The notes: generated from the letters alone by a model not told the origin. 25,647 nucleotides of DNA from a virus (IMGVR_UViG_3300021961_000571:1-25647); one strand, 5' to 3'; shown: positions 432 to 23,136, numbered from the stretch's first letter. Numbers and translations are program-made.

Positions 432-478
432 TCGGCAGGCTGCTGTCGTAGCCAGCGTCGTTGCTTGTCGGTAGGCCC

Positions 479-724
479 ATGGCAGTCAGCAGTCAGCTAT
501 CGCTCTTCGGTGGTGCGCTTGCTTTGCTCACCACCGTCGTAGCAACAACAGTGGCCATTGATTCGCGGTATGCGAAGTCAGAGGAGGTCAGGCAGCAGTT
601 CTGCGAGGCACGGAAGCAGCAGTTGCGTGACCGCATTTTTGAGCTGGACTTAAAGCCAACCAAGAGCGCCTCTGACAAGGCGCTCCGGGAGTACCTCCAG
701 CAGCAACTGAGAGATGGCTGTTAA
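479..724 (+). CDS. Small membrane protein, one N-terminal TM segment
   Basis: 81 residues from the ATG at 479. An in-frame TTG at 461 exists but has no better initiation signal. Residues 7-28 (LSLFGGALALLTTVVATTVA) form one hydrophobic segment. The rest is charged and mostly helical (KSEEVRQQFCEARKQQLRDR), like a short membrane-anchored periplasmic helix. Lying with the holin-like genes at the end of the structural program suggests a lysis-cassette member, perhaps an inner-membrane spanin, but no Rz signature is recognised. Its end overlaps the next gene by 11 nt, suggesting coupled translation. Confidence 0.55.
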   Translation: MAVSSQLSLFGGALALLTTVVATTVAIDSRYAKSEEVRQQFCEARKQQLRDRIFELDLKPTKSASDKALREYLQQQLRDGC

Positions 725-2764: not shown

Positions 2765-3490
2765 TCACAAGGTAGGGGGCTCCCAGAGGATCGGCCTCTC
2801 TTTGGCTACGTCGTATTCGCCTCTCCTGAGAATGCGAGCACAACGGGCCATCTGAATGGCATCCGCCTCTGTCTTCTTGGCCTTCTCGTAGGCGATGACA
2901 ACAGCTGCCCAGAACTCGTTGTCCTTTTCGCAGCCGTCAAGGATTTGCTCGGCCTTCTTTGGACCGACGCCAGGGCAGCCGGGGTAGCCATCTGTCGCAT
3001 CGCCGCACAGCACTTGGCTGTAGAAGGCTGTGTCTGCCTGCAGTCGGCTGACGTGCTGAAGCTCATCACCTACAAGGTGCATCCCTGGAATGGTCTGCAG
3101 GTCCTTGTCCCGGCTGACGATGATGTCCTCCCCGTCAGACATGATCCCCACCACGTCGTCTCCCTCGATGCCGGGGAACGACTGGGAGACCCAGGTGCTG
3201 CGGGCCCAATCCCGCAGGGCTTGATAGCCAGCAGGCCTGCGGCTCTTGCGGCGGTTGGCCTTGTACTTGGGGTAGACGGCGTAGCGGAAGTTGCTCACAT
3301 CACCGAAGGCCAGCACCACTGGAGCGGTGGGCATGATCTCGTTGATGCGGGCAACCTCCTTGTCGAAGGCATCCTTGGCCTCCGAGAGGTTCACCTCATA
3401 GGTCCACTTATCTGGGGCCCATTCGGTTTCGTACTCCGCCCCCGCTACGCAGCGGAAGAGGAAGGTTTCTGCGTCGACCAGGATTCGCAT
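2765..3490 (-). CDS. T7 gp6-like 5'-3' exonuclease (FEN/PIN-like fold)
   Basis: 241 residues. N-terminal ILVDAETFLFR carries Asp6, and AFGDVSNFRY carries Asp64. GIEGDDVV (residues 108-114) and SRDKDLQ (126-131) are the acidic metal-binding clusters of 5'-3' exonucleases. CGDATDGYPGCPGVGPKKAEQIL (162-184) is the helix-3-turn-helix DNA-binding motif with two further Asp residues. In T7 this enzyme removes RNA primers and degrades host DNA; its length is slightly under T7 gp6. The start overlaps the zinc-ribbon gene by 46 nt. It is separated from the primase/helicase by five small genes instead of a DNA polymerase. Confidence 0.9.
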   Translation of the reverse strand: MRILVDAETFLFRCVAGAEYETEWAPDKWTYEVNLSEAKDAFDKEVARINEIMPTAPVVLAFGDVSNFRYAVYPKYKANRRKSRRPAGYQALRDWARSTWVSQSFPGIEGDDVVGIMSDGEDIIVSRDKDLQTIPGMHLVGDELQHVSRLQADTAFYSQVLCGDATDGYPGCPGVGPKKAEQILDGCEKDNEFWAAVVIAYEKAKKTEADAIQMARCARILRRGEYDVAKERPILWEPPTL

Positions 3491-3702
3491 CGTTCGGCGT
3501 GAATGAAGAGGGGGTGGAGGGCTTCGTGGCAGTAGGCCAAGACGTATTCCGGGGGCTGGGCGGTATAGAAGCGGTGGTCACAGGCCAGGCAGTGGCGCCT
3601 GCGCACGCGGAACCGACGCTTGCGGACCTTCGTGTAGACGACAGCGAGGTTCTTGCTGCCGCACTCAGGGCAACCGACGAGGGGCTGAGAGTGGTAGGCC
3701 AT
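3445..3702 (-). CDS. Small NrdR-like zinc-ribbon protein
   Basis: 85 residues. The first 46 form a treble-clef/zinc ribbon: Cys11 and Cys14 in CPECGS, Cys38 and Cys41 in RRRHCLACDHRFYT. This matches the N-terminal DNA-binding domain of NrdR (CPxCGS...RRRxCxxCxxRFxT). The ATP-cone domain of NrdR is absent. The C-terminal ~35 residues (EYVLAYCHEALHPLFIHAER) are of unknown function, and the last part overlaps the exonuclease gene by 46 nt. A DNA- or RNA-binding regulatory role is likely, but the target is unknown. A second ribbon of the same type is encoded at 6049-6246. Confidence 0.65.
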   Translation of the reverse strand: MAYHSQPLVGCPECGSKNLAVVYTKVRKRRFRVRRRHCLACDHRFYTAQPPEYVLAYCHEALHPLFIHAERCESWSTQKPSSSAA

Positions 3703-3703
3703 C

Positions 3704-3916
3704 TCAGTACGGGTTGCTTTCTTCCATCTCCCGCAGCAGCCGATCGGCTACTTCGTTGATGGCCAGGTGACAGATGCGGGCCTGCTCCTTGGCCGGGGCC
3801 CAGGTGCGGATCTTTTCGCTGATCTTGTGAACGACTGCCTGGATGCGGCGCTTGTCGTCGATGGCCAGTTCAGCGTCAGCCCAGTAGAGGGAGGTCAGCT
3901 CTTGAGAGAGGGTCAT
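3704..3916 (-). CDS. Hypothetical 70-residue helical protein
   Basis: The ATG at 3916 overlaps the stop of the upstream gene by 4 nt, and its stop lies 1 nt before the zinc-ribbon start, as expected in this compact operon. The sequence is predicted all-helical and charged (MTLSQELTSLYWADAELAID, then RRIQAVVHKISEKIRTWAPA). No family is recognised. Confidence 0.55.
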   Translation of the reverse strand: MTLSQELTSLYWADAELAIDDKRRIQAVVHKISEKIRTWAPAKEQARICHLAINEVADRLLREMEESNPY

Positions 3917-4146
3917 TTGGCAAGGACGGGGGTACAGGTGGGCCAGCGGGCTTTGGCGTAGGCCTTGGCCTTGGCAGCGCTTGGGGCATTGATGACCCAG
4001 CGCATGGGCTTGGCGTTCTCGAACTGGATCAGGAGGATGTATTCCTTGGTCCGTTCGCCGTCGCGTGGCCGGTCAACGCCAGGGCCACGCCGGATTTCCT
4101 TGTCGTCCTGCGCCCAGCTGAAGGGAAGGAAGGTGGGTTTCTTCAT
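3913..4146 (-). CDS. Hypothetical 77-residue protein
   Basis: The start overlaps the upstream stop and the stop overlaps the downstream start (4-nt ATGA junctions on both sides), which supports it as a real translated gene. The N-terminal half is basic and Gly/Pro-rich. The C-terminal half (EYILLIQFENAKPMRWVINA, then PSAAKAKAYAKARWP) looks like a beta-beta-alpha unit. The family is not recognised. Confidence 0.55.
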   Translation of the reverse strand: MKKPTFLPFSWAQDDKEIRRGPGVDRPRDGERTKEYILLIQFENAKPMRWVINAPSAAKAKAYAKARWPTCTPVLAK

Positions 4147-4343
4147 TGCCCGTCCGCGTCCATGACGTGGCGGCAGGCGCAGATGTAGCCGTCCCAGTAG
4201 GTGATGACGTACTTGGCGTCGTCTTTGACGGCTTGGTTGTAGTGCTTGTAGGCCATCTCAAGCAGGCGCTTGACGGTGCCGACAGTGACTTCAAGATCCC
4301 GCTCAGGATTGAACGAAGCGGATGTTTCGGGTGTCGTAGACAT
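4143..4343 (-). CDS. Hypothetical 66-residue protein
   Basis: Predicted helical core (VTVGTVKRLLEMAYKHYNQA) followed by YVITYWDGYICACRHVMDAD, containing a CxC pair and a nearby His. Metal binding is possible but unsupported. The stop overlaps the next start (ATGA). The ATG at 4343 lies 41 nt inside the end of the upstream gene; no later start would keep the helix. No family is recognised. Confidence 0.5.
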   Translation of the reverse strand: MSTTPETSASFNPERDLEVTVGTVKRLLEMAYKHYNQAVKDDAKYVITYWDGYICACRHVMDADGQ

Positions 4344-4506
4344 TGGTGATTTTTTCGTTTGACCCCTGGCTCCAGCGGATGGATGCGGAGGAGTCGTGGA
4401 CTTGAGTGATGTGTCCCTTCTTCCAGCCGTCAGCTGAATAGAAGTGGACGTGATGACCAGCTCTCAGCTGGCGGAAGCTCGCTACAGGCCCGCCGGGTCG
4501 TCCCAT
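4303..4506 (-). CDS. Hypothetical small beta-rich protein
   Basis: 67 residues from ATG 4506, which lies 25 nt inside the end of the primase/helicase gene. The core FRQLRAGHHVHFYSADGWKK followed by GHITQVHDSSASIRWSQG has the alternating pattern of a small SH3-like/Tudor-like barrel (basic turn, then GxIxxVxDxSaxIRW). It ends TNVYDTRNIRFVQS. Together with its three neighbours it fills the interval where T7-like phages usually carry DNA polymerase. Nucleic-acid binding is a guess from fold type only. Confidence 0.5.
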   Translation of the reverse strand: MGRPGGPVASFRQLRAGHHVHFYSADGWKKGHITQVHDSSASIRWSQGSNEKITNVYDTRNIRFVQS

Positions 4507-6056
4507 TTCTGATCGAGAGATTGAGTTGCTTCGTCGAAAAGGAAGGAGCCTGCATAACCACATCGGCCGAGCATCCTGTTTTTCAGGCAGTAGGAATGAG
4601 TCAGCTGTGTGCCGCGCCGTCTGGACAGGGCCCAGATGGTGTCGGCCAGCTGAACGATCGAGTGCGAGCCGCGGATGTCGTGCAGCTCCGGGACGCCTCC
4701 GTCCTCCATGTTTTTCACCTGACTGCTGCTGCGGTTCAGGTGACTGATGGCGAACACCGTGCACTTGGTGGCCGCAATGAAGGAGCGGATCTTGGTGACC
4801 AGGGCATCCAGCTGACGGGTGTCTTGCGCCAGGCCAGAGCCGACGATCGTCAGGTGGTCGAGATAGATGTGCTGGCAGCCAAGCGAGCGAACCATGTAGT
4901 TCATTCGCTGGAGGATCACGTTCTCGTCGAGCGATCCGAAGTGATCAAACAGCTCCAACATCCCCGAGCCGGTGACGAACTTGTCTGCCTGGGCGATGTT
5001 CTGCAGTTGCTCGTCGCTTAGCCCTGCGTAGGACTGGCGAGCGTGCAGCTGTAGACCCGCTGCCATGCCGACAAAGCGGAAGACCGCCTCGTCTGCTGTC
5101 TCTTCCAGGCCAATCCAGCCGACCTTGATCCCCTTCTCCATGTCATGGAGGGCCAGGGCTCTGGCGAAGGTGGTCTTGCCAATGCCCGAACCAGCGATCA
5201 AGACGATCATCTGGTTGTCGTAGAAGGGCGTCTTCTGGTTCCACCAGGCGAACGCGCAGTCAGTGGCTACGCGAGTCGGTGGCTTGAGGACGATCCCCTC
5301 GTAGGCCGAGGCCGGCTTGATGCCATCGGGCCGCAGCTCCTTGGCTGCATAGATGGCTTCCTTGACCGCCTGGCCGCCCAGCTCCTGCAGCGTGTCGTTG
5401 GCGTCCTTGCGGGGGAACACCACACGCCGCACCTGCCCTGCAGTGAAGAGGTCAACGAGTGCGCTGGCCGCGGCCTCGCCTGGCTCGTCGTTATCGGTGG
5501 CGATGTAGACGATCCGGTAGGCGTTGAACTGGTCAAGGTTTTTCTTGACCCAGCCAGCAGCTGACTGCGCACCGTTCGGGACTGAGATCCCCACGACCTT
5601 GCCGTTGGTGGCGGCGTAGATCGACGGCGCATCGAACTCTCCCTCGCAGATAGCGATGGCGTCGTGATGGGCAGGGTTGGCCAGGTGGTGGCCAAACCCC
5701 ATGACGTTCTTGGCGTCACCCTTCCAGCTGATCTTCTTGCCGTCAGTGCGGAACTTCTGGGCAATGACCTTGCCGGCCACGTCCCTGTATTGGAAGGCCA
5801 CACCGTTGTCGGTGCGGACGATTCCGTACTGCTCAAGAACCCGCTTCGAGAGACCCCTGCACTGCTCGTTCTCCCACGCCTCAATGGTGAGGGTGGTCAT
5901 TGGCGGAAGAGGGTCCGATCGGGTGGGCGGTTCCTGTCCTTCGCCCTTGGTGAACGTGTTGCAGACGAAGCAGAAGGTGTGATCTGAATAAATCGCCAGG
6001 CCGTCACTACTGCCGCAGCTGCAAGGCCCGTGACCAAGAAACTTGGAATCACTCAT
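4482..6056 (-). CDS. T7 gp4-like DNA primase/helicase
   Basis: 524 residues from ATG 6056. This start is preferred over an upstream one because GGAGGGG precedes it directly and it gives the expected N-terminus. A zinc-binding domain has Cys12, Cys14, Cys29 and Cys32 (GPCSCGSSDGLAIYSDHTFC); the first pair is CxC rather than the CxxC of T7. The Toprim primase core has CEGEFDA (about 137-143) and IATDNDEPG (186-194). The RecA-like helicase has Walker A IAGSGIGKTTF (287-297), Walker B IYLDHLTIVGSG, the AISHLNR motif, HDIRGSHSIVQLADTIWAL, and a C-terminal NRMLGRCGYAG arginine-finger region. It unwinds DNA and primes lagging-strand synthesis at the fork. Length is close to T7 gp4A (566). Confidence 0.93.
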   Translation of the reverse strand: MSDSKFLGHGPCSCGSSDGLAIYSDHTFCFVCNTFTKGEGQEPPTRSDPLPPMTTLTIEAWENEQCRGLSKRVLEQYGIVRTDNGVAFQYRDVAGKVIAQKFRTDGKKISWKGDAKNVMGFGHHLANPAHHDAIAICEGEFDAPSIYAATNGKVVGISVPNGAQSAAGWVKKNLDQFNAYRIVYIATDNDEPGEAAASALVDLFTAGQVRRVVFPRKDANDTLQELGGQAVKEAIYAAKELRPDGIKPASAYEGIVLKPPTRVATDCAFAWWNQKTPFYDNQMIVLIAGSGIGKTTFARALALHDMEKGIKVGWIGLEETADEAVFRFVGMAAGLQLHARQSYAGLSDEQLQNIAQADKFVTGSGMLELFDHFGSLDENVILQRMNYMVRSLGCQHIYLDHLTIVGSGLAQDTRQLDALVTKIRSFIAATKCTVFAISHLNRSSSQVKNMEDGGVPELHDIRGSHSIVQLADTIWALSRRRGTQLTHSYCLKNRMLGRCGYAGSFLFDEATQSLDQKWDDPAGL

Positions 6057-6246
6057 CCCCTCCCTGCTGCAGCGGGAGGTCGAGCACAAAGCCACGGGTC
6101 TTGCCAGCGTTGACCGCTAGGACTTCGTGGGTTTGGAACTCCTTGCCACAGTCCTTGCAACGCCTATGGCGCAGGACGTGATTGGTCTTGTTGTAGGTGT
6201 AGTCAACCTTGCTCTCAATAGAGCCACAGTGAGGGCAGCTGATCAT
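6049..6246 (-). CDS. Second small NrdR-like zinc-ribbon protein
   Basis: 65 residues. The ATG at 6246 overlaps the stop of the RusA-like gene (ATGA). The ribbon MISCPHCGSIESKVDYTY...LRHRRCKDCGKEFQTHE has Cys4, Cys7, Cys30 and Cys33 and closely follows the NrdR N-terminal pattern. No ATP-cone follows, only a short tail (VLAVNAGKTRGFVLDLPLQQ). The stop is 8 nt inside the primase/helicase gene. It could be a DNA-binding regulator or a small accessory protein of replication. No ribonucleotide reductase gene is present in the window to serve as a target. Confidence 0.65.
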   Translation of the reverse strand: MISCPHCGSIESKVDYTYNKTNHVLRHRRCKDCGKEFQTHEVLAVNAGKTRGFVLDLPLQQGGDE

Positions 6247-6602
6247 TGCCAGAGGACGGAGAAGTTGATGTGGGCGTCTTTGAGTGATGTCTTCTGCCAA
6301 CTCATCGCCACCGTCCCGATCACGTTCACGTTGTCGTCCTTCCAGATCAGGCCATTGCCTGCATCGAGCAGGCTGCCCAACCTGTTGTCCAGATCTCCCC
6401 TGGCTGGGCCGTAGAAGGCCACAACCAGGACGCTGATGTGATCGAGGGGTTGCTCTGTCCAGTGCTCGCCCATAAGAGCCCTGGCCTTGCGCACCCATTC
6501 CTTATATGCAGCGTCCATGTAGGGCCTGGCTTGACCCATGTAGGCCCTTGGACGTGCTTTGGACTTCGGCGCTAGCGGCAGGCAGATGTCAACCTGCTGC
6601 AT
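6243..6602 (-). CDS. RusA-like Holliday junction resolvase
   Basis: 119 residues from ATG 6602, overlapping the SSB gene end by 14 nt. The RusA family pattern is clear: an N-terminal PKSKARPRAYMGQARPYMD segment, then RGDLDNRLGSLLDAGNGLIW followed by KDDNVNVIG. Asp70, Asp72 and Asp89/Asp90 match the metal-binding carboxylates of E. coli RusA (Asp70, Asp72, Asp91). The position of the essential Lys76 of E. coli RusA is a Gly here, with Arg74 close by. It would resolve branched replication and recombination DNA before packaging, taking the place of T7 endonuclease I (gp3). Confidence 0.85.
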   Translation of the reverse strand: MQQVDICLPLAPKSKARPRAYMGQARPYMDAAYKEWVRKARALMGEHWTEQPLDHISVLVVAFYGPARGDLDNRLGSLLDAGNGLIWKDDNVNVIGTVAMSWQKTSLKDAHINFSVLWQ

Positions 6603-7158
6603 TGAAGACACAGCTGTCGTCGACGAAGCCGCCGGGCACTGCGTCGAAGACGCAAGCTGCTTTCTTCTCTTCGCTGACGTACTCCAGCAGCTCCACCACC
6701 TGGGCCTGGCGGGGCTGAAAGGACATGCCAGCACCTGTGCCGCGGCTGGGCCACGGATAGATGTCAAAGCCAATGATCACCTTGGAGCCATTGCCTACCA
6801 GGCGCTTGGCGTCCCAGGGGTTGCGGGCGCTGTCAAAGACAGAGGGACCTTCGCTCTTGGTGCCGTCCTTGCGGGTCCACTGGGGCAGCTTGAAGCTGAC
6901 CACCGTGCGGGAGCGAGGGTTCTCAGAGTCGGGCTTGGCGGGGAACCAGTTGCTGGACTTCTTGGTTTCCCCGTGAAAGTCCTTGTAGCGGCCTTCCATC
7001 TCTTCGATCCACGCCATGTGGACCTTGTTGTCGTTGTCCAGAAGAAGTTCAACGCTCCAGCTGGGGGGCTTGGAGGGGTCGAACTTGTTTTCCCGGGCAT
7101 CACCGAGGAGCTTGAACCAGCGGCACTCTGCAAGAGGAGTGACGAGAAGCTGCGGCAT
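6589..7158 (-). CDS. T7 gp2.5-like single-stranded DNA-binding protein
   Basis: 189 residues. Recognised by the pattern of phage gp2.5-like OB-fold proteins: an N-terminal strand with a FDPSKPPSWSVELLLDN segment, a middle TVVSFKLPQW, and a C-terminal GNGSKVIIGFDIYPW...GAGMSFQPRQAQVVELLEYV. The strongly acidic C-terminal tail of T7 gp2.5 is weak here (the end is VDDSCVFNAAG). It probably coats ssDNA at the fork and partners the primase/helicase encoded downstream. The start lies 2 nt after an ACCACGACCA leader motif, and no classical Shine-Dalgarno is present. Confidence 0.8.
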   Translation of the reverse strand: MPQLLVTPLAECRWFKLLGDARENKFDPSKPPSWSVELLLDNDNKVHMAWIEEMEGRYKDFHGETKKSSNWFPAKPDSENPRSRTVVSFKLPQWTRKDGTKSEGPSVFDSARNPWDAKRLVGNGSKVIIGFDIYPWPSRGTGAGMSFQPRQAQVVELLEYVSEEKKAACVFDAVPGGFVDDSCVFNAAG

Positions 7159-7235: not shown

Positions 7236-9647
7236 TCATGAGTACAAGTACGGGTTTGACCCAATGAGTCCCACCTGCAGCGTGCCGACATAAGGAGGCT
7301 CAGGCAGCGGGATCCCAGTCACCAACTGGACTTCTTCCCTGAATACAGCCAGCCAGTTGGTCCGAAACATGCCTGCGTAACCGTGCAGCAAACTCGTATG
7401 AAGGACTGTTGCATCTCCCATATGAGTTGCGAAGCAGTCGTGATTCGTGAGCAGCGGCATCCCGAGCGATACACCCCTCTGGATGATCTGCTGGCACAGG
7501 GCCGCATCGAAGCCATGGGTGAAGTTGGCGCCGATGCCCTTGTTCGCCTGCGTTGCTGACAGCGGGGCGTCGATCGGCTGGTCCTGCATCGTGATGCTGA
7601 TCTTTTTGCCGAACAGCAGCGTCTCCACCCTGCGCCTGGTGGGCTCCCGGTCGGCCAGCCGCATGGGCCAGCCCATTGGTGTTGTCCACTCCAGGGGATA
7701 GCCCGCCGTCATCACCTTGCGGCACACCTGCTTGAGCCACTTCTTCACCTCCAAGCAGGGCGCCACCTCCTGCTTGAGCTCGGCCCACAGGTGGCTGGCG
7801 AGGTACTTGCTGGGAACGGCTACCCGGTAGGCGTATTCATCCAGCGGCACGTAGCCCAGGTGTCGATCGAGGGCATCCACCAGCCCATCGCAGAGGCTCA
7901 TGTAGCTGCCCCCGTAGGGCGTCGCCAGCACCGGCCCCTTCACCAGGCCGCGGTCGATGCCACGGGCCAGCCAGAGCTCAGCCAGTGCCCTCTCCTTCTC
8001 GTCGCCCAGCTCCAGGTCGGCGGTCAACCGCTGCACCACCTTCTCGGCGATCACCGTGTAGAGATCGCGGGGCGTGGTGCCGAAGACGTTGCACAGGCGG
8101 GCTGTCTTGGCGTCCCGCACAAGCGTCGCCAGGATCCCGCAGCCACTGGTGGTCTGGTCAAAACGGATCGGCACCCCGCTGTAGCCCGTGTCCAGTGCCT
8201 GCTTCAGCCCGCGGCATAGCTGCAGGAACTGCCAGGGATCCTTGGCTCCACGCCATAGCTCCAGCCGGCCCAGCGGGTCCTCGGCCGCGGCAACCATGGC
8301 GTCCTTGGCCTTCTCCCCCCACCGCAGGCGCTCATGCCAATGGTCACGGCTCAGGCCGTAGTGCCCTGCTGCTGCCTTGAGGATCCACTGGATCCCCTCG
8401 TCGGTGGCCGGGGCCTGCTGCTCAAACGACAGCAGCGACTTCTCGGTGTCCGGTCCTTGGTGCGTGCAGTATTTGTTGCCCGTGTAGATCCGGCCTCTGT
8501 GGTCTGCGTGGTACGCCTGCCAGACGGTGCGGCCGGCCAGCTCCTCAGCCATCTGCAGCGCTCGCTCGATCCGCACTCGCCGGACCCTGTTCTGCTCGCG
8601 GTCTCGGTGGGCCATGGCTGCCAGTCGGTTCCGGGTGCGCAGCTCCTCTGCTGTGGGGCTGTCGCCCAGGCGCTCGGGTACTTCCATCGGCGCCCTGCCG
8701 CAGGGGAACAGGCCGTCGATGCCGTTCTCCCAGGCCGTGCGCTGCAGCTGCACCATCTCTGCGTCCACCACCAGGGGCGTGGCCTGCAGGTGGTTGATCC
8801 CATCAACAAAGACAGAGAGGTCGGCCTCTCGGTAGTGATCAATGGCGCTGCCGTCCTTCTCCTCGTTGTCCTGGATCGGCACCCGGATGATGCACTCCTC
8901 ATTGCCCAGCACCCCGCCGCCATAGAGGGTTGGCCACGCCACGGGAGGACAGACCATGGCCGAGTGCGCCACGCTGTAGACCCGCTGCGGGCAGTTGCGA
9001 ATGAACTCCTCAGCCTCTGCTGTGGGCAGCACGAAGCGGGGGCTGGTCCTGCCCACCCGATGCTTGACCACCCGCAGCAAGGGCAGCGACTGCAGGATGT
9101 GATCGAGCAGGAACCGTCCAACGTGCAGCCGCGAGAGGTCGTTCCATGCGGGGATGGGGCAGCCCAGCTCCTGCATCACCTGCTTGCTGGCCAGCCGCCT
9201 GCGGCTCATGCCCTCACGCATCAGTCGGCGAAGCTCAAGCGGGCTCTTCTTGTCGAGCCGCATCAGCCGCGTCTCGTCCTCGATCGCCTTGCCCAGGTTC
9301 TGACAGAAGGTGGGCAGCCGCTGCTTGCGGCTTAGCTGGTCGATCGTCGCCACCAGGCCGACCGCTGCAATGTGATGCACCCCCTTGAAGGGATCAAAGA
9401 AGGGGATCGCTGCGCCATTGACCCTGGCCTTGGTCGGGTCCAGCAGGAAGTCCTCGAACGTGCTCTCTAAGGCCGCGGCCAGGTCTTCAAGGAACCGGCT
9501 GTAGAGCTCCTGGCCGTAGGGCAGGGCTGACTCCTTGCCCAGCTCCTTGATCCGGCGATGGCTCGATGCGTTGGCCTGCCTTGCTCTGTCTTCCGCCTTC
9601 CTTTGTCTTGCAAGTTGCTCGTCTTGCGGACTGCGGAACACTTGCAT
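7236..9647 (-). CDS. T7-like single-subunit DNA-dependent RNA polymerase
   Basis: 803 residues (T7 gp1 is 883). Conserved elements in order: DHRGRIY (382-388); motif A Asp497 in RFDQTTSGCG; motif B Arg566, Lys570 and Tyr578 in RGLVKGPVLATPYGG with the exact T7 spacing (R627, K631, Y639); GANFTHGFDAAL with His711; motif C His736-Asp737 in TNHDCFATHMGD. All catalytic residues are present, so the enzyme should be active and transcribe phage genes from its own promoters. The C-terminus is NPYLYS rather than T7 FAFA. The ATG at 9647 has no Shine-Dalgarno, and the first codons lie within the CTTGCA repeat region. It is the first gene after integrase and tRNA-Leu in the leftward direction. Confidence 0.95.
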   Translation of the reverse strand: MQVFRSPQDEQLARQRKAEDRARQANASSHRRIKELGKESALPYGQELYSRFLEDLAAALESTFEDFLLDPTKARVNGAAIPFFDPFKGVHHIAAVGLVATIDQLSRKQRLPTFCQNLGKAIEDETRLMRLDKKSPLELRRLMREGMSRRRLASKQVMQELGCPIPAWNDLSRLHVGRFLLDHILQSLPLLRVVKHRVGRTSPRFVLPTAEAEEFIRNCPQRVYSVAHSAMVCPPVAWPTLYGGGVLGNEECIIRVPIQDNEEKDGSAIDHYREADLSVFVDGINHLQATPLVVDAEMVQLQRTAWENGIDGLFPCGRAPMEVPERLGDSPTAEELRTRNRLAAMAHRDREQNRVRRVRIERALQMAEELAGRTVWQAYHADHRGRIYTGNKYCTHQGPDTEKSLLSFEQQAPATDEGIQWILKAAAGHYGLSRDHWHERLRWGEKAKDAMVAAAEDPLGRLELWRGAKDPWQFLQLCRGLKQALDTGYSGVPIRFDQTTSGCGILATLVRDAKTARLCNVFGTTPRDLYTVIAEKVVQRLTADLELGDEKERALAELWLARGIDRGLVKGPVLATPYGGSYMSLCDGLVDALDRHLGYVPLDEYAYRVAVPSKYLASHLWAELKQEVAPCLEVKKWLKQVCRKVMTAGYPLEWTTPMGWPMRLADREPTRRRVETLLFGKKISITMQDQPIDAPLSATQANKGIGANFTHGFDAALCQQIIQRGVSLGMPLLTNHDCFATHMGDATVLHTSLLHGYAGMFRTNWLAVFREEVQLVTGIPLPEPPYVGTLQVGLIGSNPYLYS

Positions 9648-9881: not shown

Positions 9882-9965
9882 TGGGACCAGAGGGACTTGA
9901 ACCCTCACCTCCGTACGGAGAACGCATTTTAAGTGCGGCGCGTCTACCAATTCCGCCATGGTCCC
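9882..9965 (-). tRNA. tRNA-Leu(UAA): tRNA-Leu (anticodon UAA), complete and intronless
   Basis: A full 84-nt tRNA. The acceptor stem GGGACCA/TGGTCCC has 7 bp with discriminator A73 at 9882. The D arm contains GAATTGGTAGACGC. The anticodon loop CTTAAAA gives anticodon UAA. The long class II variable arm TTCTCCGTACGGAG identifies Leu. The T arm is GAGGG-TTCAAGT-CCCTC. The 27-43 pair of the anticodon stem is a C-U mismatch. CCA is not encoded. Unlike many cyanobacterial tRNA-Leu(UAA) genes it has no group I intron. It lies 14 bp beyond the integrase stop on the same strand. Confidence 0.93.
9882..9965 (-). other. Candidate phage attachment site (attP) within tRNA-Leu
   Basis: Tyrosine integrases commonly use tRNA genes, and attP normally lies beside int. 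In the cyanopodovirus P-SSP7 a segment identical to part of host tRNA-Leu was reported downstream of int. The same arrangement is seen here with a whole tRNA. The core crossover cannot be placed without the host attB sequence. The repeats at 9796-9875 could be one arm. Confidence 0.45.
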
Positions 9966-9979
9966 GTGCCGGCATCCTC

Positions 9980-11008
9980 TCACCAGGAGGAGGAGCTGGC
10001 GACCAGTGCCTCGTAGCAGTCATCCAAGCGGCTCGTATCCATGTGGATGTAGCGCTCGCAGGTCTTGGTCCCCCGGTGGCCGAGCCAGGCCGCGATCTGC
10101 AGCGTCGTCCTACCGGCCATGCCCATACGAGTGCCGCAGGTGTGCCGTAGCTGGTGGATGGGGCGAGGGATGCTGATGTCGCACATCTGCATCGCCCTCT
10201 CTACCTGCCAGTTGAAGGCGTCATAGGTGATGTTCCATACGCGCAGCCGAGGGGATGGCGGCATGTATGGCGTGATCGCGTCAATGGCCCGGGGCGTCAT
10301 GCGCAGGACCCTGTTGCCCTCCTTGTTGTCCCGCTTGGCCTTGAAGAACTCGACCACGCCTTTCTTGAGATCAACGTGCTTGCCGAGGATGCGCTCGCAC
10401 TCGCTGAAGCGCGGGCCCATCTCCACCATGAAGACGACCAAGGCCTCCTCCTGGTGGTGGCCGCGGCGGCGCAGGTTGTCGCAGACCATGCGCAGCTCGT
10501 CTGGCGTCCAGATCCGCTCTTGGATGTTGTCTGCCGTGAGCCGCTGCTTGGCAAGCGGTGGCAGGGACATGGCCCCGCCCTCCTTGATGGCTGCCTCGCG
10601 CATCAGGTTGAGCTTGCAGAGCTTGTTTTTGATGGTCGAGGCGGCGTTGTCCTTGCGCTTCAGGTGCTCGACCAGCCTCTCAACGTCCTTAGCCGTGATC
10701 TCCTGCACGGGCGTGCTCATGCCGAAGAACTCAGCCACCTCGCGGGCATAGATCAAAGAGCTGCGCTCGCTGCGCATCCCCTCGAAATGGGCCTCCAGGT
10801 AGGGCATGGCGTCGGCCACCGTGTAGCCCTGACGCTTGCGGCGTGGTGTGTGCGGCTCTGGCGCGCGCAGCAGATCAGCCAGGCGTTGTTCTGCGTGCTT
10901 TTTGCTGTCGCAGTACAGCTGGCTGCGCTTGCCGTCGTCGAAATGAACGTTGAGAACCCACTGGCCATTCGACCGGTGGGTGATCCTCCATTGAACGGGG
11001 GCTGTCAT
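9980..11008 (-). CDS. int: Tyrosine-family site-specific integrase
   Basis: 342 residues. An N-terminal arm-binding/SAM-like region (about 60-150, with YTVADAMPYLEAHF and TAKDVERLVEHLKRK) precedes the catalytic domain. Active-site residues: Arg200 (MGPRFSECERI), Lys223 or Lys225 (FFKAKRDN), His285 and Arg288 (IHQLRHTCGTRM), His311 (AAWLGHRGTKT) and nucleophile Tyr320 (CERYIHMDT). All are intact, so it should be active. It catalyses integration and probably excision at the adjacent tRNA-Leu. No excisionase is recognised. An ACCACGACCA motif lies 31 nt upstream of the start, overlapping the stop of the regulator gene. Confidence 0.93.
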   Translation of the reverse strand: MTAPVQWRITHRSNGQWVLNVHFDDGKRSQLYCDSKKHAEQRLADLLRAPEPHTPRRKRQGYTVADAMPYLEAHFEGMRSERSSLIYAREVAEFFGMSTPVQEITAKDVERLVEHLKRKDNAASTIKNKLCKLNLMREAAIKEGGAMSLPPLAKQRLTADNIQERIWTPDELRMVCDNLRRRGHHQEEALVVFMVEMGPRFSECERILGKHVDLKKGVVEFFKAKRDNKEGNRVLRMTPRAIDAITPYMPPSPRLRVWNITYDAFNWQVERAMQMCDISIPRPIHQLRHTCGTRMGMAGRTTLQIAAWLGHRGTKTCERYIHMDTSRLDDCYEALVASSSSW

Positions 11009-11039: not shown

Positions 11040-11049
11040 TGGTCGTGGT
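11040..11049 (-). promoter_or_regulatory. ACCACGACCA motif upstream of integrase
   Basis: A perfect copy of the leftward leader motif. It overlaps the last base of the stop codon of the 11049-11369 regulator and lies 31 nt before the integrase ATG. Confidence 0.45.
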
Positions 11050-11369
11050 TAAGCGACCGCGGCCAGTGCCCTCTTCACTGCTGCTCCCTTCTTGCTGAGG
11101 CGGACGAGGTATCGCCGCCCCTCGCGTGGGTCAATCACGACTTCCACGATGCCAAGGCAGGACTTGCGGTGTCGGGCGTGTTCGCCAAGCGAGTTGACGA
11201 TCCGACTGGCCGAGGCGTTGCTTATCTCGAAGCGGTCCTGTATCTGCTTGTACGTGCAGGCCTCCTCTTGCGCAATGAAGAGGAACACTTGCGCGTGATG
11301 GAGCGGCAGAGCGCCCGGATCCAGAGACCCGAGAACCTCCAAAGCTCTGTCCAGTTGATCCAAATCCAT
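11049..11369 (-). CDS. MarR-like winged helix-turn-helix regulator
   Basis: 106 residues. A winged-helix domain fills most of the protein: HAQVFLFIAQEEACTYKQIQ, then DRFEISNASASRIVNSLGEH as recognition helix, and a beta wing IVEVVIDPREGRRYLVRLSK, then KGAAVKRAL. The DPREGRR wing and LSKKG end are typical of the MarR family. It lies directly upstream of int in the same direction and may control integrase expression or the lysis-lysogeny choice. A related protein is encoded at 11533-11886. ATG 11369 was taken as start; a coupled upstream frame overlaps it. Confidence 0.75.
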   Translation of the reverse strand: MDLDQLDRALEVLGSLDPGALPLHHAQVFLFIAQEEACTYKQIQDRFEISNASASRIVNSLGEHARHRKSCLGIVEVVIDPREGRRYLVRLSKKGAAVKRALAAVA

Positions 11370-11533
11370 GGCTGAGGGGTCCTCCGCTGCTCCCGTTCAA
11401 GGGAAACAACCATACGAGGTCGCAGCGAATCTCGCACGCCATGGACGGAAATGCTGTAACCAACAGCGCGTGTTATCACTGCTGCCGAAGCCAGCAGGAC
11501 AGCCGCGGTCCCGCAAAAGATCATACGAGCCAT
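11222..11533 (-). CDS. Possible small membrane protein overlapping the regulator gene (doubtful)
   Basis: The ATG at 11533 overlaps the TGA of the upstream winged-helix gene (TGATG), as at many junctions here. The N-terminus looks like a signal or TM segment (MARMIFCGTAAVLLASAAVI). The frame then runs 148 nt into the MarR-like gene, where it has the look of a shadow reading (RSITRKCSSSLRKRRPARTS). Either a short membrane gene was extended by a frameshift or mutation, or the segment only bridges two real genes. Without it the 163-bp gap 11370-11532 is empty. Confidence 0.3.
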   Translation of the reverse strand: MARMIFCGTAAVLLASAAVITRAVGYSISVHGVRDSLRPRMVVSLEREQRRTPQPWIWINWTELWRFSGLWIRALCRSITRKCSSSLRKRRPARTSRYRTASR

Positions 11534-11886
11534 CACTCGCCAGGGGCCTGGAAATCTACAACTACGGGGGCGAGGATTTCCCTCCCCCTAGCGGTTAAAT
11601 GCACCCGGTATCCCTTGGATTGCGGGCGTCTGCGGCGTTGTAGAAGATGCAGATCGGGGCAGACCACCCGCTCGCGGCGCCGGTCGTACCAGGGCGTCAT
11701 GCTCAGCACGGCCCGGTTGACGGTTCCGTTCTGCGCTCCGGTGGCAACAGTCAGCTCCTCGATAGTTCGTGGCCGTTCAGCTACGTGCAGCAGGACTTCT
11801 ACGGCCAATAGGCCGAGCGTCTTTTGCCCGTAGCCGTTCCGCAGCTGCCGCAGCAGCCGGCTCATTTCCGTCGTCATCTTTTCCAT
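11533..11886 (-). CDS. Second winged helix-turn-helix regulator (MarR-like)
   Basis: 117 residues from ATG 11886, whose first base is the last base of the preceding TGA; a GTG one codon earlier is possible. Domain order: dimer-type helix (EMSRLLRQLRNGYGQKTLGL), HTH (EVLLHVAERPRTIEELTVAT, then GAQNGTVNRAVLSM), wing (RRPQSKGYRVHLTARGREIL). The YRVHLTARG end is MarR-like. It resembles the 11049-11369 product in size, layout and position, although identity is low. It is probably a phage regulator of early/lysogeny genes. Confidence 0.7.
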   Translation of the reverse strand: MEKMTTEMSRLLRQLRNGYGQKTLGLLAVEVLLHVAERPRTIEELTVATGAQNGTVNRAVLSMTPWYDRRRERVVCPDLHLLQRRRRPQSKGYRVHLTARGREILAPVVVDFQAPGE

Positions 11887-12101
11887 CACTGAAAGGTGCC
11901 GTCGTCATCACGGCGGCGCATGATCTCGTCGATGATTCGCCGCTTCTCCTCTGGCGTGATCCGCCCGTCGCTCTGGCGCCTGCGGTAGGCGGCCAGATCC
12001 ATTGGCATCTCTTCCCGGCGGCCATCCTTGGTGCCCTTGCGGGTCACGGCCCAGGCGACCAGCAGCACCCAGCCGCCAACCACCAGGCAGAAGCTCAGCA
12101 T
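11886..12101 (-). CDS. Small membrane protein with SHOCT-like C-terminus
   Basis: 71 residues with a strong ribosome binding site (GAGGAG, 5 nt before ATG 12101). Residues 1-19 are one TM helix (MLSFCLVVGGWVLLVAWAVT). The cytoplasmic part is basic and ends GRITPEEKRRIIDEIMRRRD, resembling the short SHOCT helix pair (G-I-T-EE-...II...L). The role is unknown. It lies in the lysogeny/accessory block and is coupled to the regulator downstream. Confidence 0.6.
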   Translation of the reverse strand: MLSFCLVVGGWVLLVAWAVTRKGTKDGRREEMPMDLAAYRRRQSDGRITPEEKRRIIDEIMRRRDDDGTFQ

Positions 12102-15034: not shown

Positions 15035-15421
15035 TTGGCGGTGCATTTGGCTGATGCCTGTCCGTTGATGCAGGAGGCCTGCCGGCTGGGTCGGGAGTGT
15101 GGATTGGTTTATGCGGTGTTGTGGGAGGCGGCGTGGCATGACCGCAGGGGTGACTGCGGGGGGACGACGCAGATGAGTCATAAGTCGTTGGCTGCCCTGT
15201 GTCACATGAGCAACACGACGGTGTTGAAGGCTGTGGATCTGCTGCTGGATAACGGGCTGATCAGTTGCTTGGGATTGACGGGGAGTTGGGCGGGTGGATC
15301 GCAGAAGCGGATCTACCGGGTAATTCATCCCGACCATGTGGAGGCACAGAGAGCAGCGATTGCAGTGATGGGTGAGGGGTTGTCACCCAGCAAGAGGGCC
15401 AGGGCTTTGCGTGCTGGGTAG
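15035..15421 (+). CDS. Winged helix-turn-helix regulator, first rightward gene
   Basis: 128 residues if begun at TTG 15035 (GGAG 10 nt upstream). GTG 15041 is an alternative with AGGTGG 9 nt before it; upstream in-frame extension is limited by TAG at 15005. The HTH is GTTQMSHKSLAALCHMSNTT followed by VLKAVDLLLDNGLISCLG and a wing SQKRIYRVI, of the HTH_36/GntR-like kind found in phage and plasmid regulators or replication proteins. The two 33-bp repeats just upstream could be its operators, suggesting autoregulation. It could switch between leftward lysogeny genes and the rightward program. Confidence 0.65.
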   Translation: MAVHLADACPLMQEACRLGRECGLVYAVLWEAAWHDRRGDCGGTTQMSHKSLAALCHMSNTTVLKAVDLLLDNGLISCLGLTGSWAGGSQKRIYRVIHPDHVEAQRAAIAVMGEGLSPSKRARALRAG

Positions 15422-15550: not shown

Positions 15551-15712
15551 ATGCCGTATTTGACGAACAACCAACGTCTGGACTTAGGGCTGGTGGGTGC
15601 CAGCTGCGTGAAGGAAGAGACGCTGGAGAAGGTGAAGCCTGAGGGCTACTACGTCCAGGGTGCAAAGGAAGCACCGGCTAAGCCTGCTGCTAAGAGCGCT
15701 GCCAAGAAGTGA
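15551..15712 (+). CDS. 53-residue protein with Lys/Ala-rich tail, upstream of large terminase
   Basis: ATG 15551. The body MPYLTNNQRLDLGLVGASCV, KEETLEKVKPEGYYVQG is followed by a repetitive tail KEAPAKPAAKSAAKK resembling histone-like or linker tails. Its TGA overlaps the GTG start of the terminase (GTGA), a coupling junction. No family is recognised. Given its position it could have a packaging role, but it does not look like a small terminase, which is encoded elsewhere. Confidence 0.5.
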   Translation: MPYLTNNQRLDLGLVGASCVKEETLEKVKPEGYYVQGAKEAPAKPAAKSAAKK

Positions 15713-17475
15713 AGGAACTGTGGGAACCTCTACCGCCTGTCCTGCGGGATAGCTTCCCCAACTTCACTTGTTACCTGTTGCGGGAACTGGGGCTAGCGGA
15801 TAGTCCCACCCGTCAGCAGATCAGTGTCTGCGACTGGATGCAGAACGGCCCAGAGCGGTCGTTGACGGTGGCGTTCCGTGGTCTGGGGAAGTCAATCCTT
15901 GCGTCGTTCTATGCCTTGTGGCGACTGCGGGTTGACCCCAACGAAAAGATCCTGATCGTGTCGGCTACAGCAGTGAAGGCGACGGACTTCTCGTCGTTCA
16001 TGCTGCGCTGCATTGGTGAGGTCGACATTCTTCAGTGTCTGACCCCTGGTCCCAACAACCGCTTCTCAAACGTGGCCTTTGACGTGGGGCCAACGATGGT
16101 GGAGCAGTCCCCATCTGTTCGTTCGATGGGGATCATGGGCCAGACCACTGGCCAGCGTTGTACCTGCGCAATCCTTGATGACGTGGAGACGTTGGCGAAC
16201 GTCATCACGCAGCTCAAGCAAGAGCGGGTGGCCCATGCGGTTGAAGAGATCCAGTCGATCATCAAGCCGGAGGAGGGGCAGGCCCTACCCCGCAAGATCC
16301 TCTACCTGGGAACACCCCACACCGAGACCTCGATCTACCTGCGCCTGGTCCGTGAGCGCAGTTATGCCGCTCGGTATTGGCCTGCTCTGTATCCCAAGGA
16401 GCTGGAGTCTTATGAGGGCAACCTTTGCCCGGTCATTGAGGAGGAGGTCTTGGCTGACCCCTCCCTAGTGGGGGAGCCGACAGATCCCGAGCGTTTCTCG
16501 CACGACGACCTGCTGCAACGCAAAGCCGCCATGACCAAGGCGAGCTTTGAGCTGCAGTTCATGCTCAACACTCGTCTTGCCACGTTGGATCGTTTCCCGA
16601 TCCGCCTGGGGGACTTGATCGTGATGGACATCGACGGCACGGCACTGCCCGAGACCGTCGTCTGGTCGAATCAGCCCGATGTACGCCTGCAGGAGCTGGT
16701 CTGCGTTGGCATGGGCGCTGATCGCTTCTACCACCGCCCCATCTTCCAGAACGGCTGGATCAGCAGGGATGAGGCCTGGCGGTGCGTCTTGGCGATTGAC
16801 CCCGCAGGCCGCGGCGCTGATGAATTGGCCTGGGCAGTGGTCGCTGAACTCAACGGCAACCTGTTCCTGCTGGAGTCCGGCGGCAGCACCCTGGGTTATG
16901 CCGATGAGGTGCTGCAGTTTCTGGCGAAGACCGCCAAGAAGTGGGACGTGAACTACGTCGTCGCTGAATCAAACATGGGTGATGGCATGTTCTCCGCACT
17001 GCTCAAACCACACCTGATGCGTGACCACCCGGTCACCATTGAGGAGGTCCGCCACAACCAACGGAAAGAGCAGCGGCTTTGTGACACCCTTGGCCCACTG
17101 ATCCAGCAGCACCGGCTGGTAGTCACCACCCGCGTGATTAAGCAGGACTACCGGCTGCTCGATGAGGACCCCGAAAGCGGCCACAGCCGTTCCCTGTTTG
17201 TGCAGGCGTCGCGTCTCACCGCAGAAAAAGGGTGCCTGTCCCACGACGACCGACTTGATGCGCTCGCTATTGCCTGCGGGTACTTCGTGGAATCCGCTGC
17301 ACAAGACCAGGAACGTGCTCGTCAGTCCCGTGCGGATCAACTGCAACAGGAGGCCTACGAGGCTTGGTTGGATGAGACCGGCGCCGCAGTCGATGCGCTT
17401 GCCTTGGGGTGGCGTCCGAAGGCCGGAACCCGGTCCCACGGGGGTATTAGCCAACTTCGAGTCGGCGGGAAATAG
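15709..17475 (+). CDS. Terminase large subunit (T7 gp19-like)
   Basis: 588 residues (T7 gp19 is 586). The ATPase domain has Walker A in AFRGLGKSILASF (Lys61) and Walker B in CAILDDVETL (Asp157-Asp158, Glu160), then the coupling segment KILYLGTPHTETSIY. The C-terminal RNase H-like nuclease has Asp364 (VLAIDPAGRGADE), Glu420 (VVAESNMGDGMF) and Asp513/514/517 (HDDRLDALAIACGYF). It pumps DNA into the prohead through the portal and cuts concatemers. GTG 15709 overlaps the previous stop. Its last 29 nt overlap the end of the opposite-strand small-terminase gene. Confidence 0.93.
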   Translation: MKELWEPLPPVLRDSFPNFTCYLLRELGLADSPTRQQISVCDWMQNGPERSLTVAFRGLGKSILASFYALWRLRVDPNEKILIVSATAVKATDFSSFMLRCIGEVDILQCLTPGPNNRFSNVAFDVGPTMVEQSPSVRSMGIMGQTTGQRCTCAILDDVETLANVITQLKQERVAHAVEEIQSIIKPEEGQALPRKILYLGTPHTETSIYLRLVRERSYAARYWPALYPKELESYEGNLCPVIEEEVLADPSLVGEPTDPERFSHDDLLQRKAAMTKASFELQFMLNTRLATLDRFPIRLGDLIVMDIDGTALPETVVWSNQPDVRLQELVCVGMGADRFYHRPIFQNGWISRDEAWRCVLAIDPAGRGADELAWAVVAELNGNLFLLESGGSTLGYADEVLQFLAKTAKKWDVNYVVAESNMGDGMFSALLKPHLMRDHPVTIEEVRHNQRKEQRLCDTLGPLIQQHRLVVTTRVIKQDYRLLDEDPESGHSRSLFVQASRLTAEKGCLSHDDRLDALAIACGYFVESAAQDQERARQSRADQLQQEAYEAWLDETGAAVDALALGWRPKAGTRSHGGISQLRVGGK

Positions 17476-17686
17476 GCACAACCTTTTCTTCCATTCCTGA
17501 GAAGTCCAACTTCCCGGCCAACTTCTTAAGCGTGCTGCCCTCTTGAGCTACAGCAGTCACGTTGTTCTGCTTGAGCAGCTGCATCGCCTCGGCGCGGGCC
17601 TTGCGGTCACCGTTTTTCAGGTCTTCCAGCACCTGGGCGACCACTTCTGCGTGGATTTCGGCCAGCTGCTCCTGTAAATCCGACAC
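17447..17686 (-). CDS. Terminase small subunit-like protein, antisense to its neighbours
   Basis: 79 residues from GTG 17686, chosen because GAGGG lies 7 nt upstream and the N-terminus becomes MSDLQEQLAEIHAEVVAQVL, as expected; GTG 17713 would add 9 residues without a ribosome site. The pattern (SDLxxxLxxxHxxVxxxVLEDLKNGDRKARAEAM, QLLKQNNVTAV, then a Gly/Ser linker and EEKVVPISRR) is that of T7 gp18-type small terminases, which have a DL...L.ARQFLK.N.I core. It fills the gap between two rightward genes on the opposite strand and converges on the large terminase, an unusual arrangement. Recognised by pattern only. Confidence 0.6.
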   Translation of the reverse strand: MSDLQEQLAEIHAEVVAQVLEDLKNGDRKARAEAMQLLKQNNVTAVAQEGSTLKKLAGKLDFSGMEEKVVPISRRLEVG

Positions 17687-17784
17687 TTTTACGCCCTCGT
17701 AGCCCTGTTTCACCCACTATGGCGGCTAAAGCTGGGCCGTAACAGCGTTAATGGGTACGCTTACAACGTCTACGACGCCGCAGA

Positions 17785-17976
17785 GTGGGCCTGCTACCCC
17801 CTATCGACGACAGACTGGTCGCCGAACTGGCGCAGCAGTTCCCTGACCGGGCTCCATCGCTTGATTTGAGCGAAAAAGAGGTCTGGTTTCGCGCTGGTCA
17901 GGTGTCTGTCGTGCGCTGGTTAGAGCGGTTAGCGGCAGATCAGCGGCAAACCCTGTTTTCAGAGGAGGTGTCCTGA
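17785..17976 (+). CDS. Conserved-looking 63-residue phage protein
   Basis: GTG 17785, no clear Shine-Dalgarno. VAELAQQFPDRAPSLDLSEK, EVWFRAGQVSVVRWLERL has the (F/L)P-R-P...S-.E.WF.AGQ.SVV..L pattern I associate with short proteins of T7-like marine phages near the portal, function unknown. Its TGA overlaps the ATG of the first MC-type protein, and its last codons supply that gene's AGGAGG. Confidence 0.6.
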   Translation: MGLLPPIDDRLVAELAQQFPDRAPSLDLSEKEVWFRAGQVSVVRWLERLAADQRQTLFSEEVS

Positions 17977-18371
17977 TGTGTTCCGGCGGAGGCGGCAGCC
18001 CGGCGACGATCACCATGCCGGATTACGGCGCCTACAACAATCAATTTCAGCTTCAGAAGTCTGCAATCGAGCAGACGATGAACAACGGCACGCAGTTGAT
18101 GCAGCAACAGCTGACTGCATCGCTGCGGGACAAGGAAACCGCCTACGGGCGTCTGACCGAGCAGGCAAAACTCAGCGCAGAGAACACCAACGCGCAGGCC
18201 ATGAGGCTTGCCATGTTGATCGGCGCACCGCCGCCGGAGAAAACCGCTGACGCCCCGCTTGTAGGGGCCTCTGCTCGCGGCCTTAAGTCCGCAAAGGGCA
18301 AGGGTGCGCTGCGAATTGAGCGCGGTACGGCAACAAGCAACAGCCAGGGCGCTGGCCTCAACATCACCTAA
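17976..18371 (+). CDS. T7 gp7.3-like tail/virion assembly protein, copy 1
   Basis: 131 residues, start fixed by AGGAGG 7 nt upstream. The N-terminus MCSGGGGSPATITMPDYGAY is followed by a Gln-rich coiled region (NQFQLQKSAIEQTMNNGTQL) and a low-complexity linker. The C-terminus is KGKGALRIERGTATSNSQGA followed by GLNIT. T7 gp7.3 ends KKSLSVARSSGGGINI, the same layout of basic linker, L(R/S)(I/V)-R, then GG/AG-(I/L)NI, and also lies just before the portal gene. By analogy this is a minor virion protein needed for tail assembly or adsorption. First of three tandem paralogue-like genes. Confidence 0.65.
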   Translation: MCSGGGGSPATITMPDYGAYNNQFQLQKSAIEQTMNNGTQLMQQQLTASLRDKETAYGRLTEQAKLSAENTNAQAMRLAMLIGAPPPEKTADAPLVGASARGLKSAKGKGALRIERGTATSNSQGAGLNIT

Positions 18372-18382
18372 GGAGAAAACCC

Positions 18383-18784
18383 ATGTGTCTAGGAGGTTCC
18401 CAGCCTCAGGCCCCGCAAATCGTCTACCAGGGCCCCAGCGACGCTGACATCGCCGCCAATCAGGCGGCATTGGATCAGTACAAGGCGCAAATCGGTGAGC
18501 AGCAGAAGGCTTTCCAGACGACTCTGCAAGCCCAAATCGACAAAGCCAATCAAGAGACCACTGATCTGCAAACTCGGTTTGACAATGAAGCCGCCGCGGC
18601 TGCCGCTTCCGCTGCTGCTCAGCAAACCGGCGCTTACGCGGTGACGGCCACTCAATCCGAAGCCCCAGTAACGGCGCAGACCACGGCCGCTACGACCAAA
18701 AAGAAGAACCCCCAGACCAATTTGAAGATCAGTCGGGCAGCTATGCCCACGTCTGAAGGCGCCGGCCTCAACATCGGAGTTTGA
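18383..18784 (+). CDS. T7 gp7.3-like tail/virion assembly protein, copy 2
   Basis: 133 residues with AAGGAG upstream. It has the same frame of motifs as copy 1: start MCLGGSQPQAPQIVYQGPSD, coiled centre (ANQAALDQYKAQIGEQQKAF, TTLQAQIDKANQETTDLQTR), Ala/Thr-rich linker with KKKNPQ, and end LKISRAAMPTSEGAGLNIGV. The centre is not alignable with copy 1 by eye, but both ends are. Probably a structural protein with a disordered linker. Confidence 0.65.
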   Translation: MCLGGSQPQAPQIVYQGPSDADIAANQAALDQYKAQIGEQQKAFQTTLQAQIDKANQETTDLQTRFDNEAAAAAASAAAQQTGAYAVTATQSEAPVTAQTTAATTKKKNPQTNLKISRAAMPTSEGAGLNIGV

Positions 18785-23082: not shown

Positions 23083-23105
23083 GCGCAGGGGACGAATGTT
23101 CACCT

Positions 23106-23136
23106 GGGGGCTGGCTTTTGCTGGCCCCTTTTTTTG
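23106..23136 (+). terminator. Rho-independent terminator after the capsid gene
   Basis: GGGGGCTGGC-TTTT-GCTGGCCCC followed by seven T. The stem is GGGG/CCCC plus an inner short helix with an internal loop. It lies 23 bp after the capsid stop, the same place as the Tphi terminator of T7 after gene 10. It probably reduces transcription into the tail genes. Confidence 0.75.

Follow-up and report, generated by a model that had tools for sequence, protein, structure and literature searches.

A T7-like phage lineage without a DNA polymerase gene that probably uses a host polymerase

The replication block and its lineage

The stretch of viral DNA analysed here (the window) is a linear fragment of 25,647 bases without end repeats, and about 17 kb of the phage genome lies outside it. 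Its minus strand carries a 5'-3' exonuclease of the T7 gene 6 type (2765-3490; Pfam 5_3_exonuc_N 1.9e-8; PHROG 107 5.9e-52), a primase-helicase of the T7 gene 4 type (4482-6056; Pfam DnaB_C 2.2e-16 and Toprim_2 1.7e-8; PHROG 239 2.7e-115), an NrdR-like zinc ribbon of 84 aa (6049-6303; Pfam PF22811 5.8e-7), a RusA-type Holliday junction resolvase (6243-6773; Pfam RusA 6.8e-9; PHROG 140 1.3e-16), a gp2.5-type ssDNA-binding protein (SSB; 6589-7158; PHROG 112 3.8e-12), a T7-type single-subunit RNA polymerase (7236-9647; Pfam RNA_pol 9e-46; PHROG 414 4.7e-128) and a tyrosine integrase (9980-11008; PHROG 1 4.8e-34). The ORF of the zinc ribbon may start further upstream, and this gene has a counterpart in all 11 lineage genomes compared. 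The terminase large subunit (15709-17475; PHROG 38 4.4e-85) and the major capsid protein (22042-23082; PHROG 267 7e-63), both used as phylogeny markers, lie on the plus strand. The single-subunit RNA polymerase and the T7-like capsid and tail tube genes are traits of the Autographiviridae (T7-like phages); a further trait of this family, a replication block with its own family A DNA polymerase, is not found in the window.

At the DNA level, AP013546 (Oinezvirus) and S-SRP02 are the named records closest to the window. Every gene tree places the window in one clade with AP013546, AP013547, AP013548, S-SRP02 and six IMG/VR genomes; the clade with the four named records is monophyletic in nine of nine single-gene trees and has 100% support in the eight-gene trees. 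Judged by these sequences, the window's lineage is group G9 of Mizuno et al. (Oinezvirus, Nohivirus and Stopalavirus) together with the isolate S-SRP02. Mizuno et al. gave this name to the AP0135xx genomes and could not assign them a host (PMC3861242); the uncultured phages Oinezvirus S37C6 (AP013546), Nohivirus S31C1 (AP013547) and Stopalavirus S38C3 (AP013548) belong to this group. The host of S-SRP02 (MW822601) is a freshwater Synechococcus (PMC8790148). The window shares gene order and a monophyletic clade with the G9 phages, none of which has a DNA polymerase, but its gap genes, early genes, SSB tail and integration tRNA are different from theirs; in S38C3 the primase-helicase that the window has is missing too.

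A tRNA-Leu (taa) identified with ARAGORN (9882-9965, minus strand) adjoins the integrase as a possible attachment site. Across 85 nt it shares 84% identity with tRNA-Leu from freshwater picocyanobacterial MAGs (Synechococcus and Vulcanococcus), in which its final 25 nt have an exact match; planctomycete matches extend over 27-29 nt only. The host is thus likely a picocyanobacterium of the freshwater Synechococcus type. A longer tRNA pattern search returned no host, and an RNA polymerase search of three candidate host MAGs returned no prophage.

In T7-like phages, the DNA polymerase (gene 5) lies between the primase-helicase and the exonuclease. An earlier note on this DNA had reported that only five small genes, four without a family and one zinc ribbon, occupy this place, and ORF prediction with Pfam and PHROG matches bears out both the borders and the content of the gap. 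The 991 bases at 3491-4481 consist of five closely packed minus-strand ORFs, s1 (4303-4506, 67 aa), s2 (4143-4343, 66 aa), s3 (3913-4146, 77 aa), s4 (3704-3916, 70 aa) and s5 (3445-3702, 85 aa). The last is an NrdR-like zinc ribbon (Pfam PF22811 5.8e-8); for s1-s4, neither Pfam nor PHROG gives a match at E <= 0.01. In the 74 relatives that have the genes on both sides of the gap, its length ranges from -75 to 1805 bases, with 243 aa as the size of the largest ORF inside it.

The AlphaFold2 model of s1 (pLDDT 91.9) predicts a small barrel of the Tudor/SH3-like type and matches Tudor/SAWADEE-type structures with Z up to 8.6 (61 residues, 1.7 A). This fold is common to many unrelated proteins. 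PSHCP was considered as a counterpart, and the model resembles 6nnb (Z 7.3) among many Tudor/SH3 barrels; since this structural likeness comes without sequence support, we draw no function for s1 from it.

Search for a DNA polymerase in the window and its relatives

The profiles PF00476, PF00136, PF03175 and PF07733 (families A, B, B_2 and C) gave no match in the window. The same search recovered the family A positive controls P-SSP7 (E=1.5e-35) and AP013544 (E=8.6e-48); the B_2 search is weaker because its controls score only below the curated cut-off. The large genes of the window are all assigned to other functions (RNA polymerase, terminase large subunit, primase-helicase, portal and major capsid protein), and we agree with the earlier note that the window contains no DNA polymerase gene. 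None of the 26 lineage records, 11 of which are 42-44 kb long, has a family A polymerase, and family B, family C and beta-clamp domains are missing from the window, eight IMG/VR relatives and four named genomes.

Because the record is a fragment without end repeats, the polymerase gene might sit in the unseen 17 kb. We therefore turn to G001, the closest closed relative (42,461 bp), which shares 84% identity with the window across eight core proteins. It shares with G004 and G006 the presence of 127 identical bases at both ends, which identifies all three as closed assemblies. The window ends map to about 17,300 and 34,000 of G001, and the arc between them completes tail tubular protein B and further encodes an internal virion protein as well as fibre-like and other large virion-type ORFs. 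G001 has no match to families A, B, B_2 or C. The check on the rest of the genome that the earlier note had proposed, carried out on the matching arc of relatives, thus finds virion-type genes and no polymerase; together with the 26 polymerase-less records, this leaves very little chance that the gene lies in the unseen part.

A very divergent polymerase might instead hide among the unassigned genes, as in the third possibility that Cai et al. raise for MPP-C (PMC9860041). Candidates by size exist, as G001 has ORFs of 773 and 1129 aa without a family match outside the part that matches the window. However, both belong to the virion block and are flanked by tail tubular protein B and the fibres. 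This is where T7-like phages have their internal core proteins. No unassigned protein of the replication block is longer than 85 aa, and none of the four polymerase families has a match. We regard an unrecognised polymerase as very improbable.

Relation to MPP-C and other cyanopodoviruses

The earlier note had mentioned a reported cyanopodovirus lineage without DNA polymerase. This is MPP-C (P-SCSP1, P-SCSP2), according to Cai et al. the only cyanopodoviruses without this gene (PMC9860041), and our search found no family A polymerase in P-SCSP1a or P-SCSP2 either. Like the window, these are T7-like phages that keep the primase-helicase, SSB and exonuclease. They differ in their separate branch, in T7-type SSB tails and in having none of s1-s4. 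Their genomes are also smaller, at 37.3-37.9 kb; the window is a fragment with a closest closed relative of 42.5 kb. They infect Prochlorococcus MED4; the tRNA-Leu of the window points to freshwater Synechococcus-type hosts. Syn5, P-SSP7, S-CBP1 and P-RSP2 (MPP-A/MPP-B and P-RSP2) have core proteins homologous to those of the window and the same general T7-like gene order, but all have a family A polymerase between the primase-helicase and the exonuclease.

The earlier note had left open whether the phage belongs to the reported lineage or is a separate case. Membership of MPP-C, with one shared polymerase loss, would account for the same trait and the similar gene order, and a joint clade is compatible with the AU test on four genes (p = 0.143). 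Nevertheless, none of nine single-gene trees groups the window's lineage with MPP-C alone, and the lineage genomes (42-44 kb) exceed those of MPP-C in length. In the best tree of eight concatenated proteins, the polymerase-bearing P-RSP2 stands beside the window's lineage with support of 92-98 and MPP-C is placed elsewhere; a tree with both polymerase-less groups forced into a joint clade is 41 log units worse (AU p = 0.021). By parsimony, two changes are required. The trees were built with FastTree and a quick tree, and the two-loss reading rests on one AU test (p = 0.02). As eight genes place MPP-C apart and four genes alone are indecisive, two losses are favoured, and membership of MPP-C appears distinctly improbable. 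The family A polymerase was probably lost separately in the window's lineage and in MPP-C, so that a second, apparently independent, T7-like lineage probably joins the polymerase-less cyanopodoviruses already known. The part of PMC3861242 consulted does not point out the absence of the polymerase in G9, and the literature searched, with most subscription journals outside its scope, contains no statement that the G9/S-SRP02 lineage lacks it.

Possible routes to the host replication machinery

The window phage keeps the primase-helicase, SSB, exonuclease, RusA and RNA polymerase. The description of its replication block as otherwise complete therefore holds for the window itself; for the whole lineage it does not, since the S-SRP02 branch is also without the primase-helicase. 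In agreement with the earlier note, a T7-like phage without a polymerase must obtain one from elsewhere, most simply from the host. By elimination, the phage DNA is probably copied by a host polymerase. The candidates that Cai et al. put forward for MPP-C are Pol I or Pol III of the host, or else an unknown polymerase (PMC9860041). Taken together, we think it quite likely that the window is part of a polymerase-less lineage formed by G9 phages and S-SRP02, that the family A gene was lost, probably at the lineage base, separately from MPP-C, and that a host polymerase copies the DNA.

The earlier note had further suggested that the small proteins of the gap recruit the host polymerase. In favour of this, s2, the most widely kept gap gene, is found in the helicase-exonuclease gap of 63 of the 74 relatives and s1 in that of 53. 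They are kept even where the helicase is lost, since S-SRP02 has s1, s2 and s4, and s2 is also present in AP013548. In some relatives, moreover, the tail of s1 ends in QQSLFGS or QSELFN, resembling clamp-binding motifs. Several observations weaken this proposal. Such a tail is missing from the window s1, and none of the window's replication proteins contains a clamp-type motif. AP013547 lacks s1 and s4. In G005 (42.7 kb), which has no polymerase, the helicase and exonuclease genes overlap, leaving no gap, and the s1-s4 families were found nowhere in this genome at E <= 1. They are therefore not needed for polymerase-less growth across the lineage, and gap proteins as dedicated recruiters seem unlikely, although they could serve this role within the window's own branch. 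The remaining gap genes are less widely kept, s3 in 28 of 74 and s4 in 20 of 74; s5 lies in the gap of few relatives, and its paralogue upstream of the helicase occurs in 11 of 11 lineage genomes. A QLSLF sequence in x87 (461-724, plus strand), the only candidate clamp-binding motif in the window, was taken as chance, because it adjoins a hydrophobic stretch and has no homologues in the compared genomes.

The tail of the SSB offers a better lead on recruitment than the gap proteins. In T7, the acidic C-terminal tail of gp2.5, which ends in Phe, docks the phage polymerase; bacterial SSBs dock host replication proteins through a tail ending in I-P-F. In the basal branches of the lineage the SSB ends in [IVLM]PF, as in host SSBs, whose tails at three picocyanobacterial MAG loci read EDEIPF, EDEIPF and DEEVPF. 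In all 18 S-SRP02-like contigs the SSB has a tail of the form [DE]E[IVM]PF or similar, one with an extra S after it, and a host-like PF tail is present in 11 of 59 SSBs of the helicase-bearing branch. The SSB of the window ends in CVFNAAG without a terminal Phe, and its subclade has neither the host-type nor the T7-type tail. Polymerase-bearing phages have [DE]F in 9 of 12 cases, but an IPF-type tail is also found in the polymerase-bearing AP013544 and SIO1 and so is not diagnostic. Given these exceptions, the relatedness of the sequences and the T7-type DF/EF tails of the polymerase-less MPP-C, the tail pattern is a correlation that only hints at a mechanism.

The S-SRP02 branch appears to have gone further. 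S-SRP02 resembles the window in lineage, freshwater origin, the lack of a polymerase domain and its gap genes, but has no primase-helicase. DnaB_C and Toprim_2 are absent in S-SRP02, AP013548 and 11 IMG/VR contigs, and present in AP013546 and P-SSP7; one T7-like branch thus seems to be without its own polymerase, primase and helicase. At the helicase position, S-SRP02-like phages have a family of about 170 aa without a Pfam, PHROG or PDB sequence match, and its AlphaFold2 model (pLDDT 47) is unusable. That a sister branch has lost helicase and primase is easier to reconcile with a takeover of DNA synthesis by the complete host replisome than with a hidden polymerase of the phage.

We then propose a model for the replication of these phages. 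An ancestor at the lineage base would have lost the family A DNA polymerase gene, and synthesis behind the phage's own helicase-primase would fall to a host polymerase, for which the Pol III holoenzyme and its clamp are the most likely candidate. More tentatively, the host-type SSB tail of the basal branches may help to attract replication proteins of the host, and phages of the S-SRP02 branch may have come to use the host helicase and primase too. It is tempting to speculate that the system was dismantled stepwise, with the polymerase lost at the base, the primase-helicase lost in the S-SRP02 branch, and the DF tail of the SSB exchanged for the host DEIPF, drawing the host replisome onto phage DNA; we consider this full sequence of events possible but doubtful. 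As S-SRP02 is cultured, a T7-like switch to the host replisome is directly testable.

DNA polymerase is a widely used marker gene for cyanopodoviruses, and the G9/S-SRP02 lineage, freshwater members included, is missed by it. Existing annotations are affected as well. A 234-aa 'DNA polymerase III beta subunit' of S-SRP02 does not establish a phage clamp, as it has no PF00712 match and only a weak, sub-threshold match to PF02767 (0.0065). The proteins annotated as 'DNA polymerase I' in S-SRP02 (246 aa) and AP013546 (243 aa) match 5'-3' exonuclease domains only. By their domain content, the 'DNA polymerase I' entries of the S-SRP02 and Oinezvirus records are 5'-3' exonucleases only, which corrects annotations already used in a published phylogeny.

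Primase-helicase locus of the relatives

The primase-helicase is encoded by two ORFs in related loci L049-L053, L055-L057, L059, L060, L062, L068, L070, L071 and L073-L077, and in the complete polymerase-less relative G005 (17199-18774). The N-terminal ORF (106-113 aa) carries the zinc-binding part, while the second, of about 420 aa, starts with MNKND; the two lie in different frames and overlap by 8-14 bases. This split arrangement is kept across many metagenomes, and coupled translation or frameshifting is possible.

In the branch of the cultured phage S-SRP02 (L089) and its related contigs L117-L134, a strongly conserved family of ~170 aa occupies the position of the lost primase-helicase (20596-21252 in S-SRP02). 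This family matched nothing in family or PDB searches and gave no usable structure model.

Other replication-related candidates

The genes recorded as ‘DNA polymerase I’ in S-SRP02 (22389-23129) and in AP013546 (L002; 20750-21481) contain only 5'-3' exonuclease domains. Upstream of TerL, the window encodes a winged-helix protein (15035-15421) that is 71% identical to its AP013546 counterpart. It also shows weak similarity (PHROG 391, 0.0017) to replication initiators of the lambda O type; its possible roles are small terminase and origin binding.

The gap gene s1 ends in QQSLFGS, QSELFN, QPELFN or PPLFGC in L048, L061, L065 and L119. These C-terminal tails resemble clamp-binding motifs; the window's own s1 has no such tail.

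Integrase region

The integrase adjoins a tRNA-Leu (taa) at 9882-9965 in the window, whereas the relatives G001, G003 and AP013547 have tRNA-Met instead, so different members of the lineage may integrate at different sites. Upstream of the integrase lie two tandem MarR-like regulators (11049-11369 and 11533-11889), both retained by most relatives.
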